Shown piece by piece: positions 10,845 to 26,630 of a stretch of 28,942 nucleotides of DNA. The first letter of the stretch is position 1. Every line of letters starts with the position of its first letter. Below the pieces are notes generated by a model. The model did no database searches. It had not been told where the DNA came from and saw only the letters and a list, made by a program, of their open reading frames with translations. This stretch comes from a virus. The DNA is taken from the IMG/VR virus record IMGVR_UViG_3300042879_005775, positions 1 to 28,942 of that record. One strand, given 5' to 3'. The translations under genes and the position numbers were made by a program.

Positions 10845-10870
10845 GGGGGTTACTGACCCCCATTTTTTTT
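10845..10870. terminator. Bidirectional terminator between convergent genes
   Basis: GGGGGT (10845-10850), loop TACTG, ACCCCC (10856-10861), then eight T's (10863-10870). On the minus strand the stem is followed by AAATTTTT. It separates the VWA gene from the convergent 10850 gene and overlaps the latter's stop codon. Confidence 0.85.
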
Positions 10871-11368
10871 GGTATCATAGGAAAGCTCATCAGAATCAAG
10901 GAAATTGAATTGATCTCTTTTTAATCCAAATTCAAACCTATTGAAAAATTCAATTAATTTTTGTATTGATTCTTCTTTGAATGAAAATTTATAGTCAGGA
11001 TCGAATTTAGAAGAAAAACCATTATAGTGGAAAACATCCACATTACTTTTTTTAACTTTGAATTCAAACATCATAGCATCACCATAGCTAAGTTCAACAT
11101 TAATTTCTAGTTGATTATCAACCTTCATTAAGTTTAGGTCAATGCATAAATAATCTGGTTCACCATCAGAAAGTACATCACCTGATTTTTCTGGTGTTGA
11201 TTGGTGGTAGGCTGTATAAATTTTGGGTAAATTAACAAGGTAATCTGTTAGATTCAAAGTAAATTCACCATTAGAAGTAACAATATTCAGATTTTGTGGT
11301 AATAACTTTTTTGACTCTTGACTGGTTACAGGAACTTTATAAGTTTCAAAGGTTTTAATATACTTCAT
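10850..11368 (-). CDS. Hypothetical protein with capsid-targeting-like N-terminus
   Basis: A 172-residue protein of unknown function. It starts MKYIKTFETYKVPV, a form that matches M-[KRI]-x-[ILFY]-x-x-[FY], shared with four other proteins here and similar to the T4 internal-protein targeting sequence MKTYQEFIAE. The body is mixed alpha/beta with acidic beta segments (DYLCIDLNLMKVDNQLEINV) and an aromatic C-terminal half (IEFFNRFEFGLKRDQFNFL). It lacks cysteines clustered for metal binding and any catalytic signature. It begins 1 base after the stop of the 11609 gene, so the two are one transcript. I infer a possible internal head protein; this rests only on the N-terminus. Confidence 0.78.
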   Translation of the reverse strand: MKYIKTFETYKVPVTSQESKKLLPQNLNIVTSNGEFTLNLTDYLVNLPKIYTAYHQSTPEKSGDVLSDGEPDYLCIDLNLMKVDNQLEINVELSYGDAMMFEFKVKKSNVDVFHYNGFSSKFDPDYKFSFKEESIQKLIEFFNRFEFGLKRDQFNFLDSDELSYDTKKNGGQ

Positions 11369-11369
11369 A

Positions 11370-11609
11370 CTAATCTATTATTACTCTGTTTATATTATTG
11401 ATATCAATATCATAATGTTTACCATCAATCTCTACTGTAACTGTTTTATCATCAATGGATACTGGAATCAGAGGATCATTTGGATTGTTATTTGGATAGT
11501 CTTTAATAATGGTTGCAAAAATTTTACCCCCATTGTTAATACAATCAATTATATTTTGTACTGTTACTTTGGAATTTTCAAATTCTTCATATAGTTTTAA
11601 CCATCTCAT
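11370..11609 (-). CDS. Small hypothetical protein with capsid-targeting-like N-terminus
   Basis: The frame is open further upstream, but the extension would be a hydrophobic A/T-coded stretch in the divergent gap; the ATG at 11609 gives MRWLKLYEEFENSKV and a 79-residue protein. The N-terminus fits the same M-[KRI]-x-[ILFY]-x-x-[FY] pattern as four other proteins in the window and contains LYE, a possible LxE prohead-protease site. The rest (IIDCINNGGKIFATIIKDYP and a V-x-I-D-x-x-x-V strand pattern) looks like a small alpha/beta or SH3-like fold. It is the first gene of a two-gene minus-strand unit, divergent from the 2H phosphoesterase at 11652. Function unknown. Confidence 0.7.
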   Translation of the reverse strand: MRWLKLYEEFENSKVTVQNIIDCINNGGKIFATIIKDYPNNNPNDPLIPVSIDDKTVTVEIDGKHYDIDINNINRVIID

Positions 11610-11651: not shown

Positions 11652-12392
11652 ATGAAACATTTTTTAACTTATTTGAAGGATACACTTGGTTCCAACTATA
11701 TTGGAATTAAAATACAAGAAACTCAAGTGACCCCTTTTTTAAATCAACTTAAAGAAATTCTTGGTGATCAGTTTGATAAATTCAGAGATAATCAAGTAAA
11801 AAGAGATGGTGGTGGATTTCACATTACTGTTTTGAATGTTGGTGAATATAATCTTTTATCAAAAGAAAAGGGTATTGATAAATTCATTAATTCAATAGAC
11901 TCAATTATGAGAGTTGATATTGATGATGTCAAATTAATGGGATTGGGGAAAACTCAGAAAAATGAGAATTGTTCTTATTTTGTAGTTGTCAAGTCTGAGA
12001 TACTCAATGAAGTAAGAATAAAGTATGATTTAGAACCAAAAGACTTTCATATAACTTTGGGGTTTGACCCAAAAGATGTTCATGGAGTAAGAAAGAATGA
12101 ACTCTTAAAATTATCTGAACCTTTCATTCAGAAATTAAAGAAAGAGTACTTTAAAGAAGGTGAAACTTTTGAATTTGTTAAGGGTATTAAAAATTTTGAT
12201 TTGGATTTTTATAAACAAATTGAACCTATTAAAATAAATGATACCACAGCTACTTTTAGATGTGGTGACAGTGATTATATTACTATATCTTTAGTAGATA
12301 ATCAATTTTTAATCACATCCAAGTGGCAAGATGAACAGAGACTACCAATTTTGTCTGATGTATTAGTGAATAAAAAATTTAAAGAAATATAA
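11652..12392 (+). CDS. 2H phosphoesterase-superfamily protein, SAK-like
   Basis: A 246-residue protein with the two HxT motifs that define the 2H phosphoesterase fold: GGGFHITVLN with H57 and T59, and DFHITLGFD with H133 and T135, 76 residues apart. The family hydrolyses 2',3'-cyclic or 2',5'-linked nucleotide bonds, so RNA end repair or cyclic-nucleotide cleavage is likely. The GG-x-HITVLN...EY and HITLGF...DVHGV context resembles the Swiss-Army-Knife RNA-repair branch as I remember it. Residues about 190-246 form an extra C-terminal domain. The N-terminus MKHFLTYLKD fits the capsid-targeting-like pattern of four other proteins here, though without an obvious LxE or IxE cleavage site. It heads a plus-strand run with the acidic and IscA-like genes. 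Confidence 0.82.
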   Translation: MKHFLTYLKDTLGSNYIGIKIQETQVTPFLNQLKEILGDQFDKFRDNQVKRDGGGFHITVLNVGEYNLLSKEKGIDKFINSIDSIMRVDIDDVKLMGLGKTQKNENCSYFVVVKSEILNEVRIKYDLEPKDFHITLGFDPKDVHGVRKNELLKLSEPFIQKLKKEYFKEGETFEFVKGIKNFDLDFYKQIEPIKINDTTATFRCGDSDYITISLVDNQFLITSKWQDEQRLPILSDVLVNKKFKEI

Positions 12393-17635: not shown

Positions 17636-20263
17636 TTACCAGAATATCAAACATCTGAAACATTCAAAATTTGATGCCCTATTGATCCACATATATTTCA
17701 AACCATCTTTAGTTGTAAAGATTTCCATTCTATTACCTACAATTGCAGTTGGAGCAGCGTATGGGTACATACTTCCACCATTTATTTTACCAGTCACGAC
17801 ATTCAAGGACATTATTCTCTGAGTAGCATCTTTATGAAAGAACAATAAATCTTGCCCATTATAAGCAGTATTTGTTCCTGTAGTGAGGGTTTCTGTTACT
17901 GGTGTCGTAAAAATCAAATTAAACCTATCAGTGGTAATATCAAAACGGTCAAATCCAGCTACACCACCACCTCTAACCATAAACATATATCTACCTCTAT
18001 AGTTAGCATCACTTGTACCAAAGGCCCAGTTGGTATTCAGACCCAAACCTTTAACTGTCTGTTCTAATATTGCATATCCAGTCTGTCCATTAATTGGTGT
18101 ACCACCCATAGTACTAACTGTTAATGTAGTACTGGTGTTACTTGATATTGTAACTTCTTGAACTACACCAGTAGTAGTCAATATCCTACAACGTTTACCA
18201 GCCCAAATATTGACTACCCAGCTCTTACCACTATCAACAACTGTTGTGGTTGAACCACCAGTGGCAAGTCCAAAGTCAGCAGCACCAATTGCAGTTGATG
18301 TGCAAATACTATACCTAGAAACTCCATTTGTTGGTGCAGTACCAGCAACAACCAAAGTTAGTGTGGTTGATGTATTACTTGCAATTCTAGCTACTTGACC
18401 ACCTACGCTACCAGTTGTTGCTGACACAGCACCTGTGTACATATATAACATAAATCCAGCCCATTGATTTGTAGTCCAGTTTTTAGTCACATCTTGTAAT
18501 ACTGTTGTGGATTGTGAAGATGGTATAGTATTTGTAACTGGTGTACCAGCCATTGTATATGTAAATGTAGTTGCTGAAGGAACAGTGGCTATTGTTACAT
18601 TTGTCACATTATAATTTGCATCTTGAGCACCTCTAACAGTAACTAAATTACCAACTTTAAATTGGTGGTTGTGCACAGTTGTAACAGTTGCAGTTGTAGT
18701 CACATTAGAAACAGATGTGACAGCGATGGGTTGATGACCAGCGACTGTAGCAGAAGCTGACCTAGCTATACCAAAATCTTGTTGTCTACCAAAAGATGTA
18801 ACCATTGAATCTGAATTGTGAATGCCTAAAGCTGCTATACCACCAAGTTGTATGTAATGTTTATCAGGGTCCCCTTGTATTGCATACACAGAAGTACTAT
18901 CTGGATTGGTAGTCCAAGATCCTACTATAGTGATTACTGTAGAGGTGTTACTTGCAATTGGTCTTATTTGTCCAGCGCCAGTACCATCTAATATCCTCAC
19001 AGCATAATTAGTCCATCTATTAGCAGACCAAGATTTTGTCGAATCAGTGATTGTGGTACTAGCACCCGCAGTTGCTATTCCAGCATCAAACCCAAGAATT
19101 AGATACCTACTTGTTGAGTCAGGAGCGGTACCTGATGATGCCCAAGTAAGAGTAGTAGTTGTATTACTCGTTATTTGTCTTATCTGACCAGCTCCAGTAC
19201 CAGAAAAAATGTAAACCCAATAATTTTCCCACTGGTTAGTTGTCCAAGCAGCCCTATCAACACCAAGACCAGAATCAATCAATGTTGTTGATGAACCACC
19301 TGTAGCTTTTCCTCTGAACCATATAGATGCAGATTCTGAGGTTCTTTCAATAGAAATATCAGTTCCTGAAGCTGAGAAAACTTGTTGGTTACAAGGTAAG
19401 ACATACCAAGTATCAGTTAGAACATCATAAGCTTGTAATGTAATAAATGGAGTGGTACTAGGGTTATTTGAAACAACATAAATCAGTCCTGATTGTATAC
19501 GGTATACTGAAGTAGAGTCAGGCACAGTAGTCCAGTTTGAATCAACTGTTATGACTTGGGACTCAATTGCGTAATTAGCTTGAGAACCAGCAGTGGCGTT
19601 GATCGCTGGTGAAAAAACTACTGGACTGTTAAATGGTTTATTCATTTGTAATGTATCACCAAGAACTATTACAGTCGCTGAGTTTGAAAGTATACGCCTA
19701 ACTTGTGAAACACCTGTATTACCTGTTATTCTTAGTGTGTAACCAGCCCACTGGTTAACTGCCCAAGCTTTAGTTGAATCAGTTATTGATATTGTGCCAA
19801 TTGTATTAGAAATTGCAGTGACTATGCCTGAGTCAGCTATTACTGGTTCTGCTGCAGCTGTTATTATTCTTCTTTGACCAGCACCAGTTCCAGACACAAT
19901 AACGACATCATATCCAACTAAAGATTGTTGGGTCACCGCTGCTACAGTTATTGTATTAGAAGATGTTGCTATTACTTTATCCTCAATACCAAGACTACTA
20001 TTGTATTTCATTGAAGTAAATGTACTACCCAAAGTTGGTGAAGATAACTGTTGATACATATCAGTCCAAGTATCATAACGGAAAAATTGTGTAATTGATA
20101 TGTAGTAATAAATATATCTACCGTGCTCTTCTTGGTAAAAGTTACCATTATCAGCAGCACAAGTAGATGATAAAGCTGTACTGACTGCAGGTGCAAAACG
20201 GGTCCATTCCCAGGTTGGTAAATCAACTTGTCTAGTCAGAGTATTAGAGGTTAAAGCTGGCAT
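17636..20263 (-). CDS. Repeat-rich virion surface or tail fibre protein
   Basis: An 875-residue, T/S/G/V-rich, beta-structured protein. The N-terminus has RQVDLPTWEWTRFAP and an FFRYDTWTDMYQQL stretch reminiscent of Kelch-type propeller blades. The centre holds about six diverged copies of a 60-70-residue unit: DSTKxWxxNQWAGYxxRI, GTGAGQxRxIxSNTxTxxTV, then PDSTSxYxI. The C-terminal 100 residues return to propeller-like sequence ending in GLKYMWINRASNFECFRCLI. No signal peptide or enzymatic motif is seen. I infer a propeller-like scaffold interrupted by repeat modules and exposed on the virion, probably a fibre or adhesin. It follows the 193-residue and collagen-like genes on the same strand, in what looks like a fibre operon. 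Confidence 0.8.
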   Translation of the reverse strand: MPALTSNTLTRQVDLPTWEWTRFAPAVSTALSSTCAADNGNFYQEEHGRYIYYYISITQFFRYDTWTDMYQQLSSPTLGSTFTSMKYNSSLGIEDKVIATSSNTITVAAVTQQSLVGYDVVIVSGTGAGQRRIITAAAEPVIADSGIVTAISNTIGTISITDSTKAWAVNQWAGYTLRITGNTGVSQVRRILSNSATVIVLGDTLQMNKPFNSPVVFSPAINATAGSQANYAIESQVITVDSNWTTVPDSTSVYRIQSGLIYVVSNNPSTTPFITLQAYDVLTDTWYVLPCNQQVFSASGTDISIERTSESASIWFRGKATGGSSTTLIDSGLGVDRAAWTTNQWENYWVYIFSGTGAGQIRQITSNTTTTLTWASSGTAPDSTSRYLILGFDAGIATAGASTTITDSTKSWSANRWTNYAVRILDGTGAGQIRPIASNTSTVITIVGSWTTNPDSTSVYAIQGDPDKHYIQLGGIAALGIHNSDSMVTSFGRQQDFGIARSASATVAGHQPIAVTSVSNVTTTATVTTVHNHQFKVGNLVTVRGAQDANYNVTNVTIATVPSATTFTYTMAGTPVTNTIPSSQSTTVLQDVTKNWTTNQWAGFMLYMYTGAVSATTGSVGGQVARIASNTSTTLTLVVAGTAPTNGVSRYSICTSTAIGAADFGLATGGSTTTVVDSGKSWVVNIWAGKRCRILTTTGVVQEVTISSNTSTTLTVSTMGGTPINGQTGYAILEQTVKGLGLNTNWAFGTSDANYRGRYMFMVRGGGVAGFDRFDITTDRFNLIFTTPVTETLTTGTNTAYNGQDLLFFHKDATQRIMSLNVVTGKINGGSMYPYAAPTAIVGNRMEIFTTKDGLKYMWINRASNFECFRCLIFW

Positions 20264-20282
20264 TTAAAACATATTCTAATTT

Positions 20283-20864
20283 TTATTGTATTGTCAGTCT
20301 AGATCTTATGGAATTTGCATAAGTTTGTTTAGCAATATTTATATATTGTTCACGATCCATACCAGCATTTGATGCGATGTTAGTCACACTGGTTACTGTA
20401 TTGACAGTAGTTACTGTAGTTACTGTAGTTACTGTACCAACTGAAGTCAATGTAGATAGTGTTAAGGATCCAGCGATTGAGTCAATTGCAACCCGTTGTC
20501 TCTGTGCGGAATCAACAACTTGTAGTGATTCTGTTATTTTGGTGAGTCTCTGTAACTGCGCCAGAAGATCATTATTTCTACTTGAATCAACTATTGATGG
20601 GTAATCATCAGTAGATTCATACAGAAATTGTAAGATATCAGTTGCACTGTGTCCAGAAGTATCATACTCTAAAGTTATTATATCGTTTGATATAGATGTA
20701 TATCCTCTTCCAGATAGACCAGGAGCATATATGATTTCTTCTCTTGTAATATTCAATATTACAATTAGAAATTTTATATCAAAGTTTTTAATACCAGTCC
20801 TAACAGTTCCAACACCACCACCACCAGGGGTAAAGGTATAACTTGGGCTAATGTACTTTTTCAT
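20283..20864 (-). CDS. Structural protein of the fibre cluster
   Basis: A 193-residue protein between the two large fibre genes (27 and 19 bases from its neighbours). It begins MKKYISPSYTFTPGGGGVG, followed by a beta/alpha domain (FDIKFLIVILNITREEIIYA), a helical region (LLAQLQRLTKITESLQVVD), a TVTTVTTVTTVNTV repeat at about 143-156, and a basic C-terminal helix (AKQTYANSIRSRLTIQ). The mix of a helical bundle and threonine/valine repeats suggests a trimeric fibre connector or baseplate attachment protein; this is inference from context. TAATATATAA lies 3 bases upstream of the ATG on its strand. Confidence 0.75.
   Translation of the reverse strand: MKKYISPSYTFTPGGGGVGTVRTGIKNFDIKFLIVILNITREEIIYAPGLSGRGYTSISNDIITLEYDTSGHSATDILQFLYESTDDYPSIVDSSRNNDLLAQLQRLTKITESLQVVDSAQRQRVAIDSIAGSLTLSTLTSVGTVTTVTTVTTVNTVTSVTNIASNAGMDREQYINIAKQTYANSIRSRLTIQ
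20407..20436. repeat. 9-bp tandem repeat inside the 193-residue gene
   Basis: Three head-to-tail copies of GTAGTTACT (20407-20433) plus three further bases. It encodes the TVTTVTTV tract on the minus strand. Nine bases keep the frame, so copy-number change would alter length without a frameshift. Confidence 0.85.
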
Positions 20865-20891
20865 ATTTTATATATTAATTTTTTTATTCAT

Positions 20892-23645
20892 TCAACCAAA
20901 AATCAATGAATATGCAATTATTTGGTCAACTGAAATGGATGGTCCAGTTGGGCCTTGGATACCTTGGGGTCCTGAGACACCTTGATTTCCAGTCTGACCT
21001 TGAGGACCCGTAAATCCTTGAATACCAGTAACACCTTGTGGCCCAGATTCACCCTGAGGACCAGTCTGACCTTGATTTCCAGTCTGTCCTTGAGGACCAG
21101 TTGGTCCTTGAATACCAGTAACACCTTGTGGCCCAGATTCACCCTGAGGACCAGTCTGACCCTGAGGACCAGTAAATCCTTGAATACCAGTAACACCTTG
21201 AATTCCTCCTATACCAGTTGGACCTTGTGGACCACCAGCTGGGCCAGGTGTTCCAATTGGACCTTGTGGCCCAGCACCACCACCATATATTATGGTACCT
21301 GTGGTGTAAGTAGCAAATATCAATTCAAATGATTGAGTTGATGAATGTACAAGTGAATCTGGTACAAATATGTTACCAATTTCATCTATAATTTGCACAA
21401 ATGGATATTGACCACTACTGTGTGTAATTACAATAGTGTCTATTGAAGAAAAGGTTATTGATATGGTTGGATTTACACTTGGACCTTGTGGTCCAGTCTC
21501 ACCTTGAAAACCCTGTGGACCAGTTTCTCCCTGTGGACCAGTTTCTCCCTGTGGACCAACTACACCAACTGGTGTTGTAACTAAGATTATTTCATCACCA
21601 TCTGGAAAATTAGTATATCCAGTGCCAGTTGCAGTTATAAGACTTACTGGTATTTCAATATAGTCATTTGGTATTGTGTTTATGGGCCCAGAAACTAACC
21701 ATTGTTGATAGGAAGTAGAATCATCCCTATCTTGAATTGTCAACTTATCTCCAGTGGTTATTAAAGCAAGGAACATATCTATGGCATCACCTAATTCATC
21801 TATGTGACTAACATTTATTTGAGTTGAATCAATTTGAGTTAGATTATTCCATATTATGTAAGATGGTAGTGGATCACCAGATGTAGAACTTGTTTTTCCT
21901 ATATAGTTAAAAAAAGTTGATGATTGTCCCTTTGTTCCTTGTGGACCAGTTACACCTTGATAACCTTGTGGACCTGTTTCTCCTTGAAAACCTTGAGGAC
22001 CAGTAAATCCTTGTATACCAGTGTGTCCTTGGGGTCCTTGAAGTCCTTGGAAACCTTGAGGACCAGTAAATCCTTGTATACCAGTGTGTCCTTGGGGTCC
22101 TTGAAGTCCTTGGAAACCTTGAGGACCTGTATCACCTTGGACACCAGTATGTCCTTGGGGACCCTGGAAACCTTGAGGACCAGTTTCTCCTTGAGGACCA
22201 GTTTCTCCTTGAGGACCAGTTTCTCCTTGAAGGCCAGTGATACCTTGTGGACCAGCTAATCCAGAAGAAAAAATGAATAATGATAAATGTTGACCACTAC
22301 TGAAATTAGTTGTACCTATACCACTTGAAGTTACAAATAAAACTGGTACAATACTATATGAGTTTGTAATTAAAGTGATTTGGTCATTTACAGTAAATTT
22401 TTGATAATTTTCCGAATTAACTTGGTCTTGTACAATTAAGGTGTCTAAGGGTTTTATTTGTGACAAAAAGACATCTACATCTGTATTGGTAGCATCTAAA
22501 TGTGAAATGTTAATTTGAGTAGCTCCAATCTGAGTGGAATTATTCCAAAGTAAAAATGAAGGACCAGGGTTACCACTTAATGATTGGGTTGCATAATACC
22601 CAAAATAGTGGGATGATTGGCCAGCAGTTCCTTGTAAACCTTGATATCCTTGGGGACCAGTGAAACCCTGCCAACCCTGATTCCCTTGAGGACCAGTCTC
22701 ACCTTGATATCCTTGAGGACCAGTCTCACCTTGATATCCTTGAGGACCAGTCTCACCTTGTAGACCAGTAGTACCAATAATTGTTAGTTGTAACCAAGCG
22801 CCAGTCACTTGGTCTGGTGGTAATGCCCCAGTGGATTGAAAAGAATAATTGACATATAAAATACCCAAATAATCTACATAATCATTTGGATAATAATTAT
22901 TACCAGAACTCCATGGACCAACGTAAATTAATGATGATCCAGTAGCTCCTTGGAAACCTTGTGGACCAGTATCTCCCTGTGCACCAGTGTTGCCCTGTGG
23001 ACCAGTAACACTACCAGCTGGACCTTGTGGACCAGTAAAACCTTGATTTCCCTGAGGACCAGTTTCTCCTTGAAAGCCAGTAATACCTTGAAATCCCGTT
23101 ATTCCTTGGAATCCTGTATTACCTTGAAATCCAGTTTTACCACCTCCACCAACACCAGTGATTATCGTACCAGTTGTAGTTGTTTTGAACACAACTGTGT
23201 AATCATTCAAACTGTTATGTGTTATTGATTGTGGTATAATTTGTTGAAAACTATCATCTATTATTTGAACAACTGGATAAAATCCAAAGTTATGGGTAAT
23301 AGTATAAGAGGTCGTTGGTCCAAATGAATCATTAAGTACAGAAACTACACCACCTGGTCCTTGTATACCTTGATAACCTTGTGGTCCTGATATACCTTGA
23401 AGTCCAGTATTTCCCTGAGGACCAGTATCGCCTTGAAGTCCAGTAGTGCCAATTGTACCAGCTAATCCATCTAACCCTTGTGGACCAGTAAAACCTTGGA
23501 AACCTTGTGGTCCCCTTGAAACAGAGCCAACAATAGTGAATAATTCATTACCAATACCATCATAATAAACAGAGTCTCTGACTTGTACTAAGTATTGAAA
23601 AGAACTACTAACAGTGACTCCAAAAAAGGAATAGGTATTTGACAT
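20892..23645 (-). CDS. Collagen-like tail fibre with interspersed globular domains
   Basis: A 917-residue fibre. Many runs of Gly-x-y triplets, mostly GPQG-x-QG/TG, form glutamine-rich collagen-like triple helices at about 45-98, 172-236, 294-345, 472-578, 699-723 and 795-900. Between them are globular modules. One type, TSYTITHNFGFYPVVQIIDD (about 111-130), recurs as IDTIVITHSSGQYPFVQIID (about 735-754). A second, FLLWNNSTQIGATQINISHL, recurs as YIIWNNLTQIDSTQINVSHI. A single module, PWSSGNNYYPNDYVDYLGIL continuing to WLQL, resembles carbohydrate-binding family 5/12. The N-terminus (FFGVTVSSSFQYLVQ) is probably the virion attachment end. I infer a trimeric receptor-binding fibre that contacts cell-surface glycans. 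It is the first gene of the minus-strand fibre cluster. Confidence 0.9.
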   Translation of the reverse strand: MSNTYSFFGVTVSSSFQYLVQVRDSVYYDGIGNELFTIVGSVSRGPQGFQGFTGPQGLDGLAGTIGTTGLQGDTGPQGNTGLQGISGPQGYQGIQGPGGVVSVLNDSFGPTTSYTITHNFGFYPVVQIIDDSFQQIIPQSITHNSLNDYTVVFKTTTTGTIITGVGGGGKTGFQGNTGFQGITGFQGITGFQGETGPQGNQGFTGPQGPAGSVTGPQGNTGAQGDTGPQGFQGATGSSLIYVGPWSSGNNYYPNDYVDYLGILYVNYSFQSTGALPPDQVTGAWLQLTIIGTTGLQGETGPQGYQGETGPQGYQGETGPQGNQGWQGFTGPQGYQGLQGTAGQSSHYFGYYATQSLSGNPGPSFLLWNNSTQIGATQINISHLDATNTDVDVFLSQIKPLDTLIVQDQVNSENYQKFTVNDQITLITNSYSIVPVLFVTSSGIGTTNFSSGQHLSLFIFSSGLAGPQGITGLQGETGPQGETGPQGETGPQGFQGPQGHTGVQGDTGPQGFQGLQGPQGHTGIQGFTGPQGFQGLQGPQGHTGIQGFTGPQGFQGETGPQGYQGVTGPQGTKGQSSTFFNYIGKTSSTSGDPLPSYIIWNNLTQIDSTQINVSHIDELGDAIDMFLALITTGDKLTIQDRDDSTSYQQWLVSGPINTIPNDYIEIPVSLITATGTGYTNFPDGDEIILVTTPVGVVGPQGETGPQGETGPQGFQGETGPQGPSVNPTISITFSSIDTIVITHSSGQYPFVQIIDEIGNIFVPDSLVHSSTQSFELIFATYTTGTIIYGGGAGPQGPIGTPGPAGGPQGPTGIGGIQGVTGIQGFTGPQGQTGPQGESGPQGVTGIQGPTGPQGQTGNQGQTGPQGESGPQGVTGIQGFTGPQGQTGNQGVSGPQGIQGPTGPSISVDQIIAYSLIFG
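22011..22136. repeat. 63-bp tandem repeat in the collagen-like gene
   Basis: The 63 bases starting at 22011 are repeated from 22074 with almost no change until about 22126, and the similarity reaches some 28 bases further left with one mismatch. It encodes two identical 21-residue collagen units. Near identity at DNA level implies recent duplication. Confidence 0.85.
22684..22760. repeat. 27-bp tandem repeat in the collagen-like gene
   Basis: Three copies of a 27-base unit starting CCTTGAGGACCAGTCTCACC at 22684, 22711 and 22738, the last incomplete. It encodes nine-residue collagen units (GETGPQGYQ). Identical copies imply recent slippage or unequal recombination; the unit keeps the frame. 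Confidence 0.9.
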
Positions 23646-24055: not shown

Positions 24056-24748
24056 ATGGAAAACAAAGATATAGTAAATTTTTCAAAATTTTTTGAAGAA
24101 AATCTTACTTCAAAGTTATCAGAATTCAAAAAAGAAGACTTTGGTGATTTCTTTTTGAATGAAGATACAGTGGAAAAAGAAGATTATTCCCTTGATACAA
24201 CTAAAGAAATTGAGAAGAAGGAAAAGGAAGTAAAACCAGAACCTTCTTTTGACCCGCCAGTGAACCCAGAAAGTTTCATAATTGATGAGGACGAACCAGA
24301 AGAATTGGATGTTGAAGATTCTTTGGGTTCATATGATAATAAAAACAACTTCACAAAAGTTAAGGAAAATGTAGATAATTACTATTCTGTCTATAAAGAT
24401 AAATCAGAGAACTTTTCATGTGATGTTAGTGTTGAAGGTGCAAAGCTTAATGAAACAGTAGCGAGATTAATTTTAGAATCTGATGATTGGACAATTATGT
24501 TTGAGGGTGAAATTGATAGAAATGGAAAATGCACTATTCCCTTGAAGAAATTAAATATTTTTGAAGAAGGCCAAGTTGGTAAAATAAAATTAGAAGTAAT
24601 AGCAGAAAATACAGTTTTCACACCTTGGGAAGATGATTTCAAAGTTAGAATGAGTAAAAAGGTAACAGTACAAGTACCAAATAGTAAAAAACAAGAAGTC
24701 CCACAACCAATAAAAGAATCAAGGGTTTCTGTTAAAGTTAGAAGATAA
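24056..24748 (+). CDS. Hypothetical virion-region protein with acidic N-terminus
   Basis: A 230-residue protein of unknown function. Residues 1-95 are charged and probably disordered or helical (FSKFFEENLTSKLSEFKKED, EKKEKEVKPEPSFDPPVNPE, IIDEDEPEELDVEDSL). Residues about 110-205 form a beta-rich domain (FSCDVSVEGAKLNETVARLI, WTIMFEGEID, CTIPLKKLNIFEEGQVGKIK) with the look of an immunoglobulin-like fold. The last 25 residues are basic (KKQEVPQPIKESRVSVKVRR). TAATATATAA lies 4 bases before the ATG. The stop overlaps the next ATG. A decoration or assembly role is a guess from context. Confidence 0.78.
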   Translation: MENKDIVNFSKFFEENLTSKLSEFKKEDFGDFFLNEDTVEKEDYSLDTTKEIEKKEKEVKPEPSFDPPVNPESFIIDEDEPEELDVEDSLGSYDNKNNFTKVKENVDNYYSVYKDKSENFSCDVSVEGAKLNETVARLILESDDWTIMFEGEIDRNGKCTIPLKKLNIFEEGQVGKIKLEVIAENTVFTPWEDDFKVRMSKKVTVQVPNSKKQEVPQPIKESRVSVKVRR

Positions 24749-24993
24749 TGAAATATTTATTAGAATTTGACCAATTGAATGAGAACCTACCTCGTCAATC
24801 AACTGTAAATCAACTGAAAAGACTTAGGAAAATTACCAAAGGTACAGATATTGGTGATAGGATTTCAGATATGAACAAACAAGGCGCTAACATTCAATAT
24901 ATTTCAAATCCAATAGACACAGGTATAGAATCAATAGAACATTATTGGAAACATAATGATCCAGTTCAACCAGTGCGAACTAAGTCCAAGTAA
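24748..24993 (+). CDS. Small protein with capsid-targeting-like N-terminus
   Basis: An 81-residue protein. MKYLLEFDQLNENLPRQSTV fits the M-[KRI]-x-[ILFY]-x-x-[FY] pattern shared by five proteins here and offers LLE and LNE as possible prohead-protease sites (T4 gp21 cuts after L/I-x-E). The remainder is basic and helical (QLKRLRKITKGTDIGDRISD), ending in a polar tail. Its start and stop each overlap a neighbouring gene by one base, joining it with the 230-residue gene and the Acb1-like gene. A basic, small, tagged protein would suit an internal head protein; this is inference. Confidence 0.72.
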   Translation: MKYLLEFDQLNENLPRQSTVNQLKRLRKITKGTDIGDRISDMNKQGANIQYISNPIDTGIESIEHYWKHNDPVQPVRTKSK

Positions 24994-25547
24994 TGATACG
25001 ATTGAAAAGATATTCAGAGTTCATGCAAATTTTAGAGGATAAATCTGGAACTATGTATGAATATGGATGTCTGATGTTATATGTTACTTTTCCAAATTGG
25101 GATAAGTTCACTAGTGGTATTGATAAAAATCTTTTGTTTGAACCAGATAATGAGAGATATGGTGTTGAAACTGAACCACACATTACTATTCTTTATGGTA
25201 TTCACAAAGAAGTAGATGATGAACAAGTTATTGCAATGTTCTCTGACATTAAGAAATCTGATTTCCATATAGAAGCAAATGGAATGGATTGTTTCTATAA
25301 TAAAGATTATGATGTTCTTAAAATGAATATCAAATCTGAGAAACTGAATGAATTGAACAAGTTAGCCTCAACATTACCACACACTTCAACTTATCCAGAC
25401 TATAAGCCACATATTACTGTTGCATATCTAACTAAAGGTGATGGAAATAACTATGTGGATTTAAACTTTAAAATGAAAATCAATACCATTGATAAAATAG
25501 TTTATTCAAAACCAAATGGTGAAAAGATTAACATCCCTCTTGTCTGA
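24993..25547 (+). CDS. 2H phosphoesterase, Acb1-like
   Basis: A 184-residue 2H phosphoesterase. The HxT motifs are EPHITILYGIH (H63, T65) and KPHITVAYLTKGDG (H140, T142). HITILYG followed by HITVAY with 75-80 residues between is the pattern I associate with the T4 gp57B/Acb1 family, which degrades the cyclic oligonucleotide signals of CBASS immunity; RNA 2',3'-cyclic phosphate hydrolysis is the alternative. The N-terminal 24 residues precede the fold (CLMLYVTFPNW starts the first strand) and begin MIRLKRYSEFMQILEDKS, which fits the capsid-targeting-like pattern and ends in ILE, a possible protease site. If cleaved there the enzyme would be delivered with the DNA. It is last in the 23704-25547 unit, followed by a terminator. 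Confidence 0.85.
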   Translation: MIRLKRYSEFMQILEDKSGTMYEYGCLMLYVTFPNWDKFTSGIDKNLLFEPDNERYGVETEPHITILYGIHKEVDDEQVIAMFSDIKKSDFHIEANGMDCFYNKDYDVLKMNIKSEKLNELNKLASTLPHTSTYPDYKPHITVAYLTKGDGNNYVDLNFKMKINTIDKIVYSKPNGEKINIPLV

Positions 25548-25673: not shown

Positions 25674-26630
25674 ATGGAATTAGATGATTTATTTGGAGGC
25701 AATTTAGACAGTAAGATGGATTTCCTCAATGACAAGAAGGCAGTAAATTCAGATGGAATTTACAGAGTAGATTTAACCAAAGTTAAAGACAAAAAGAAGG
25801 GATATAGGTCTGTAATCAGATTTCTACCCAACTTAACAAAAGAAGGTAAAGTTGGTCAATCAGCAATTGAGAAAATCACACATTATGTGGATATCAAAAG
25901 TGCAAAGGAATTATCAGGTTGGTTTGATTCACCAAAGAATTTCAATGAGAAATGTCCACTAACAGACCTTTATTACACAATGCAGAATTCAAAAAATGCA
26001 ATCTTAGTTGAAAGGTCTAAGGCTCTTAAATACTCAAAAAAATATTATTCATATGTTTTGGTTATTGAAGATGAACAACAACCTGAATTAGTTGGAAAAA
26101 TTATGATTTTCCAATATGGCAAGACCATCAAGGATAAAATTCAAGCTGAAAGGAATGGTGAAATTACTGGTATTCCTTGTAATGTTTTTGACTTGGCAGC
26201 TGGTAAAGACTTTGTGATGTTGGTTAAGGAAATTTCTACTGGTGATGAAAACTATCCAGATTATAAAAACTCTATGTTTAAACCTGAGATGAGCTCTTTG
26301 CCACTTTTCAATGAAGAAAAATCACAATTCAAAAATGTTCCAGTTGCTGATGGAAAAGTTGACTCAAGAGCTCAGCAAATGGTAAAAGACTTTTTGATGA
26401 AAAGAGACCATGAACTTGAAGAATTCTCACCAAAGAAATTGAGTGATGAACAACAAGGAAAGATTAATGAAATCACAGCTTATCTAACTGGAAAAGCTTC
26501 AGCATCATTCAACTCAAGTAAAGAGTCAAAACCAAGTAGTGATGATTTTGAGTTTGATAGTGTAGTAAGTTCTGGTGATACTTCTTCTTCTTCCTCAGAT
26601 GAAGATGATTTCTTCTCAGACTTCGCTTAA
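25674..26630 (+). CDS. 32: Single-strand DNA-binding protein, gp32-like
   Basis: A 318-residue homologue of T4 gp32 (301 residues). The N-terminus (MELDDLFGGNLDSK) precedes the OB-fold core: YRSVIRFLPNL (44-54), ITHYVD (68-73), NEKCPLTDLYYTM (91-103), YYSYVLVIEDEQQPELVGKI (124-143), MIFQYGKTIKDKI (144-156), and IPCNVFDLAAGKDFVMLV (167-184). The last 30 residues are acidic and serine-rich (DDFEFDSVV...SSDEDDFFSDFA), the tail that recruits replication partners. The T4 zinc site (His, then three Cys) is not preserved: H70, C94 and C169 are the only candidates. It is encoded alone between two terminators, with a leader hairpin, which suits a strongly expressed, self-regulated protein that coats single-stranded DNA in replication, repair and recombination. 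Confidence 0.92.
   Translation: MELDDLFGGNLDSKMDFLNDKKAVNSDGIYRVDLTKVKDKKKGYRSVIRFLPNLTKEGKVGQSAIEKITHYVDIKSAKELSGWFDSPKNFNEKCPLTDLYYTMQNSKNAILVERSKALKYSKKYYSYVLVIEDEQQPELVGKIMIFQYGKTIKDKIQAERNGEITGIPCNVFDLAAGKDFVMLVKEISTGDENYPDYKNSMFKPEMSSLPLFNEEKSQFKNVPVADGKVDSRAQQMVKDFLMKRDHELEEFSPKKLSDEQQGKINEITAYLTGKASASFNSSKESKPSSDDFEFDSVVSSGDTSSSSSDEDDFFSDFA

Follow-up and report, generated by a model that had tools for sequence, protein, structure and literature searches.

A 2H phosphoesterase of huge phages with a leader resembling the T4 capsid targeting sequence as a probable virion cargo

Delivery peptides and 2H domains in phages

In phage T4, the internal proteins IPI, IPII and IPIII carry a capsid targeting sequence (CTS), a short N-terminal peptide with an aromatic residue and a phenylalanine three positions apart and, next to them, a hydrophobic-x-Glu cut site (Mullaney and Black; PMC9026906). 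Residues 4 and 7 of the IPIII sequence, MKTYQEFIAE, act in targeting and residues 8 and 10 in processing, and the prohead protease, gp21, cuts after L/I-x-E (PMC9026906). DarB of phage P1 is an enzyme that its N-terminal residues direct into the head, from which it is injected, as is proposed below for the 2H protein; P1, however, belongs to a different phage group, and no consensus has been reported among the N-termini of its Dar proteins (PMC9024508).

The 2H fold is known from Acb1 (T4 gp57B), which is untagged and linearises the cyclic di- and trinucleotides of CBASS. Its catalytic tetrad is H44, T46, H113 and T115, with W74 and F107 as stacking residues and W147 as the lid (PMC9117128). 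Iyer et al. (2017; PMC5512222) predicted that virions deliver certain 2H domains. Such domains in polyvalent, portal and MuF proteins are tied to virion components and belong to the same superfamily as the protein described here, several of them to the same lineage; they are linked by fusion, whereas this protein bears a cleavable-looking leader.

The 2H gene, its product and its relatives

The window, i.e., the whole stretch of DNA analysed (28,942 nucleotides), is an entire 28.9-kb virus record. Its relatives are huge phages, namely LR756502 (642 kb), LR745206 (635 kb) and IMG/VR contigs of up to 476 kb, and the source of the gene is a giant virus of bacteria; no cellular relatives of the protein were found in a scan of genome contigs. 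The ORF is intact (Table 1) and starts with an ATG that shares its first base with the stop codon of the preceding gene (TAATG). The 81-aa product of that gene begins MKYLLEFDQLNENL, its orthologues begin MKHLYTFDQLNENL, MKHLVYFNQLNENL and MKHLLRFEELSEGA, and it is possibly a tagged partner despite a low motif score of 4.3. In the huge-phage relatives, too, a gp32-like gene lies on the 3' side of 2H, as neighbourhood comparison shows.

Table 1. Features of the window discussed in the text.
Feature	Position	Strand	Evidence
2H phosphoesterase gene, 184 aa	24993..25547	+	ORF, Pfam, AlphaFold, PDB fold matches
N-terminal capsid-targeting-like tag MIRLKRYSEFMQILE, residues 1-15	24993..25037	+	disordered in the model, conserved in orthologues, best tag score of the window
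First catalytic HxT motif, HIT 63-65	25179..25187	+	H63 and T65 invariant in orthologues; equivalent to Acb1 H44/T46 (PMC9117128)
Second catalytic HxT motif, HIT 140-142, with YPDYKP just before	25410..25418	+	equivalent to Acb1 H113/T115
81-aa ORF, one-base overlap with the 2H gene	24748..24993	+	neighbourhood comparison, motif score
gp32-like ssDNA-binding protein, untagged	25674..26630	+	PF08804, 61.9 bits
Tagged ORF if an internal ATG is taken as start (MRWLKLYEEFENS)	11370..11609	-	LR756502 orthologue starts MKWIKLFEDF
Further tagged ORF, MKYIKTFETYK	10850..11368	-	tag motif

The translated ORF carries the motifs HITILYG (residues 63-69) and HITVAY (140-145), together with the I-L-E at residues 13-15 that ends the N-terminal peptide, all as read by the earlier note. 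The product matches the Pfam models PF23474 (Acb1, 36.1 bits, cut-off 27), PF13563 (2_5_RNA_ligase2, 30.9 bits) and PF02834 (LigT, 23.8 bits), so the 2H assignment is more than chance. Residues P62, H63, T65, Y137, P139, H140 and T142 are invariant in orthologues of 37-69% identity. In an AlphaFold model built from 14 sequences (mean pLDDT 85), the 2H fold begins at about residue 24, residues 1-20 have values below 50, and Foldseek matches the model to PDB 2H structures. The 2H superfamily is defined by a fold of two lobes that carries a pair of HxT/S motifs, and the ORF, Pfam, orthologue and model evidence agree on a 2H phosphoesterase.

Elsewhere in the window, a second, untagged 2H protein (11652-12392, +) matches PF22547 (2H-SAK) with 77.7 bits; its orthologue in LR756502 (596755-597489) lies near a tagged CCA-adding enzyme. 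Two large proteins on the minus strand (17636-23645), one with long GPQG collagen-like repeats, are probably fibres.

The N-terminal leader

Most huge-phage orthologues keep the N-terminal peptide K-x-[YF]-x-x-F-[IMV]-x-E, which is missing from the orthologues of Maribacter phage Molly_1 and LR756508. Because this leader is disordered ahead of the fold, and because leaderless relatives (Molly_1, portal fusions) start where the 2H fold starts, it is an added peptide. Its aromatic residue and phenylalanine are spaced as in the T4 CTS (Y7 and F10, against Y4 and F7 in T4), and they are followed by an L/I-x-E site, I13-L14-E15, with a predicted cut after E15 (I-L-E^D). The I-L-E ends five residues past F10, compared with three in T4, a spacing two residues longer, and the spacing to the Glu varies among huge-phage leaders. 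Strict L/I-x-E occurs in 23 of the 35 N-termini compared, whereas the remainder carry V, M or F in this position or are more closely spaced. With a matrix score of 9.8, the leader ranks first among the ORFs of the window.

The leader across huge-phage genomes

Similar N-termini occur on about 8% of the ORFs in two huge-phage relatives. The tag was originally found with a pattern chosen by the analyst, and ORF starts in unannotated genomes were assigned mechanically; in its stricter form, the motif stands at 76 of 939 ORF starts in LR756502 compared with 8 of 3150 internal Met positions (Fisher 1.6e-40), and in a 464-kb relative at 39 of 519 compared with 5 of 2171 (Fisher 1.7e-23). Shuffled N-termini give mean counts of 3.4 and 2.4, respectively. 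The tag is borne by 77 (LR756502) and 34 (464-kb relative) unrelated protein bodies or families and therefore does not mark one gene family. Nor is it a general feature of the proteome, since tagged and untagged proteins differ in Pfam content: 109 tagged proteins, collected with a looser pattern that admits more background, match 20 families, including PPK2, CCA-adding enzyme, Rnl1-type RNA ligase, Dam and other methyltransferases, NUDIX, RNase T and DHH and none of HSP70, ThyA, RecA or tRNA synthetase, whereas 105 length-matched untagged controls match 75 families, HSP70, thymidylate synthase, RecA and tRNA synthetases among them.

An independent test was made with a 9-residue matrix built from 111 huge-phage leaders, T4 sequences being excluded, and run on 257 T4 ORFs. 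The four highest-ranking T4 proteins are gp61.1, IPI, IPIII and IPII; the chance that all three known internal proteins would rank among these four is 1.4e-6. This result supports the interpretation of the 2H leader as a T4-type capsid-targeting-like tag. T4 is known to use its CTS on three small internal proteins, whereas in the huge phages the tag occurs on dozens of unrelated proteins, including enzymes; the larger result is a T4-like leader on dozens of huge-phage genes. No description of a genome-wide leader in huge phages was found in the open-access literature, subscription papers lying outside the search.

Several tagged proteins deserve mention in their own right. T4 gp61.1 (L180:18966-19130, -) starts MKTFKEFIKED, scores above the known internal proteins and is a candidate for an unrecognised capsid-targeted protein. 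In LR756502, a tagged polyphosphate kinase 2 (L033:679-1842, 259 bits) and a tagged 758-aa DHH protein (L030:11811-14084) are candidate virion cargo. The first 80 kb of the same genome (1-80 kb, L026-L029) contain a long run of small tagged ORFs with MKHLKxYKIFES, many of which share a DILLELxDDGF-like stretch and may form an expanded cargo family.

Probable attachment to the virion

The 29-kb window is a fragment with no gp23, S77, Rnl1 or CCA gene of its own, so the links to capsid, protease, ligase and CCA enzyme rest on its relatives. Both LR756502 and LR745206 have gp23 capsid genes above the cut-off and S77 protease matches below it. A gp23 gene occurs in 13 of 31 contigs with a tag-like 2H protein and in none of 17 with a fused one, many of these contigs being fragments (p 0.0016; 0.008 with near-duplicates removed). 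An I-N-E^N site at about residue 45 is common to gp23 of LR756502 and gp23 of the 464-kb relative, and the protease ORFs of both phages start MKP(V/I)LIVE^N; these sites may follow the cleavage rule proposed for the leader.

In phages without a T4-type capsid, the 2H relatives instead form fusions with portal, MuF or giant polyvalent proteins. The lineage sits C-terminally on portal proteins (L012, PF04860 114 bits), on Mu-type portal and MuF proteins (L146, L149) and on giant polyvalent proteins (L009, L131, L145). In two further contigs (G036, G039), the 2H gene lies within the structural module, among genes with MIKLxDILxE leaders. Given the tag, portal, MuF and polyvalent routes, different phages apparently attach 2H domains to the virion by different means. 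The earlier note had suggested that the enzyme is packaged with the genome, and this suggestion gains support from the ranking of the T4 internal proteins and from the virion fusions of the relatives; the 2H protein is probably a virion cargo.

Two observations concern neighbouring cases. The other leader style, MIKLxDILxE or MIKFSNLLRE, is present on many genes of the head-tail interval in T4-like contigs (L189-L191 of G036, L194 of G039). In L017:3501-5408, a strong Acb1 domain (124 bits) is C-terminal on a PF06381 portal (305 bits) and is likely a virion-borne true Acb1; L018:4252-6159 is an ORF of the same length.

RNA ends or cyclic oligonucleotides as substrate

The link of the 2H domain to RNA ligase or CCA enzyme holds in relatives only, through fusions and co-tagging. 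Fusions of the domain with an RNase T-like exonuclease occur in LR745206, L008 and others, and in L122:5674-7737 it shares one polypeptide with a CCA-adding enzyme. L194 (G039) has a tagged CCA enzyme two genes downstream of 2H, and CCA enzymes are also tagged in LR756502 (W01), LR745206 (W02), G001, G005, G008 and G027, that of G009 being untagged. Rnl1 orthologues are tagged in five of seven genomes, while the other two start directly at the enzyme; no RNA ligase association was reported by Iyer et al. (2017; PMC5512222), whereas here the Rnl1-type ligase is co-tagged in relatives. Near 2H, L121 has an Rnl1-type ligase, with an AAA protein between the two genes, and L117 has a PNKP-like HAD gene (HAD_PNKP-like) close upstream. 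The RNase T-like exonuclease is tagged in related phages. PF09414 RNA ligases were considered as packaged partners and rejected, being untagged in the same phages.

The closest rival to a role in repair is that put forward by the earlier note, namely that the injected protein acts as Acb1 does and linearises CBASS cyclic di- and trinucleotides before effector activation. Against the repair reading, the best Pfam model is Acb1 and no RNA enzyme. All 15 relatives scanned match PF23474 at E<=0.01. The Acb1 tetrad is present (H63/T65, H140/T142), with a YPDYxPHIT-like second motif in both proteins. The profile comparison with T4-type Acb1 that the earlier note called for gives 96% probability (E 1.2e-9) over 77 columns and sets F101 on W74 and Y134 on F107, aromatic but different residues; it ends before the C-terminal lid and leaves Y12 and E141 outside the alignment. 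Acb1 structures come first, weakly, in a PDB sequence search (7t26, E 0.03; 9q2g, E 0.27), and the portal of L017 suggests that virion-linked Acb1 exists. In most genomes no second true Acb1 was found and the 2H protein is the sole match to the Acb1 model, so a second Acb1 was dropped as an argument against this role.

On the other side, no Trp, Tyr or Phe follows residue 171, and the lid aromatic (Acb1 W147) is therefore missing; E177 is a possible equivalent of the adenine-contacting E141 by eye only, and identity outside the motifs is low. The PF23474 scores of the relatives are marginal, as are the 36.1 bits of the 2H protein itself, against 202 bits for T4 Acb1, and most relatives score better with the generic 2H model PF13563. 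Filing the protein as Acb1 was rejected on account of the missing lid aromatic and the better fit of PF13563 to most relatives. Choosing a substrate by fold was likewise rejected, as Foldseek ranks CPDase, Acb1, pox cGAMP PDE, BCSR5 PDE and Usb1 nearly equal and does not separate Acb1 from RNA cyclic phosphodiesterases. The likeness to Acb1 thus holds for the Pfam cut-off, the tetrad and two aromatics, but not for the lid, and the relatives favour a generic 2H enzyme. An anti-CBASS role is a possibility rather than an established function, and as an account of the packaged enzyme it seems a serious minority option; cyclic-oligonucleotide cleavage as the activity is given a tentative standing, somewhat short of even. 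On the strength of the fusions and co-tagging together with the Acb1 mismatches, repair of RNA or tRNA 3' ends is the favoured role, judged about evenly balanced, with Acb1-like signal cleavage as a close rival.

Proposed role and alternatives

The ORF, fold, catalytic residues and tag, as well as the tag on other enzymes of relatives, can be seen in the sequences themselves. From these we infer a packaged RNA/tRNA-repair cargo enzyme, an explanation which, taken as a whole, may be about as probable as all others together. The first 15 residues, like the T4 CTS, would bring the protein into the prohead core, where the prohead protease would remove the leader after Glu15, and the free 2H domain would then be injected with the phage DNA. 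His63, Thr65, His140 and Thr142 would attack a 2',3'-cyclic phosphate or a 3'-5' bond beside a 2'-OH, the substrate being most likely damaged RNA, chiefly tRNA 3' ends. Once the 2H enzyme had opened the end, the RNase T-like exonuclease and CCA-adding enzyme would rebuild acceptor ends and the Rnl1-type ligase would seal breaks. Since relatives tag those other enzymes too, the repair kit would be ready before phage gene expression.

Alternatively, the leader could be another kind of tag (a membrane-binding amphipathic helix, a signal for import into a phage compartment or a degron) and the 2H protein an ordinary cytoplasmic enzyme of infection. That some orthologues (Molly_1, LR756508) are untagged, as are two Rnl1 orthologues, would agree with this, but the blind ranking of the T4 internal proteins, the L/I-x-E ends, the association with gp23-type heads, the 2H gene inside the structural module of G036 and G039 and the alternative virion fusions make it unlikely. 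More doubtful still is an RNase or another 2H activity that would be delivered with the virion and directed at host RNA or at 2'-5' or ADP-ribose-derived nucleotides. Such a role has been proposed for polyvalent-protein 2H domains (Iyer et al., 2017; PMC5512222) and is consistent with the portal, MuF and polyvalent fusions of the lineage, a NUDIX fusion in L130, and Usb1 and viral 2',5'-phosphodiesterases among the fold matches, but it leaves unexplained why the CCA enzyme, the Rnl1 ligase and the exonuclease bear the tag too, and an RNase cargo would counteract the repair kit.

Implications for huge phages

The ties of the lineage to virions by tag, portal, MuF or polyvalent protein imply that early delivery matters for the job of the 2H enzyme; early, genome-linked delivery would serve repair and cyclic-oligonucleotide cleavage alike. 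Pre-made repair or counter-signalling enzymes would meet the defences of the first minutes before phage genes are expressed. It is tentatively proposed, at slightly less than even confidence, that T4-headed huge phages load about a hundred proteins by one T4-like leader, including a tRNA-repair kit (2H phosphoesterase, Rnl1-type ligase, CCA-adding enzyme and RNase T-like exonuclease) that would counter tRNA-cleaving abortive-infection defences at once. Should the leader indeed be a capsid signal, sequence alone would suffice to predict which proteins uncultured huge phages inject, and a list of candidate injected enzymes of these phages is now open to proteomics.
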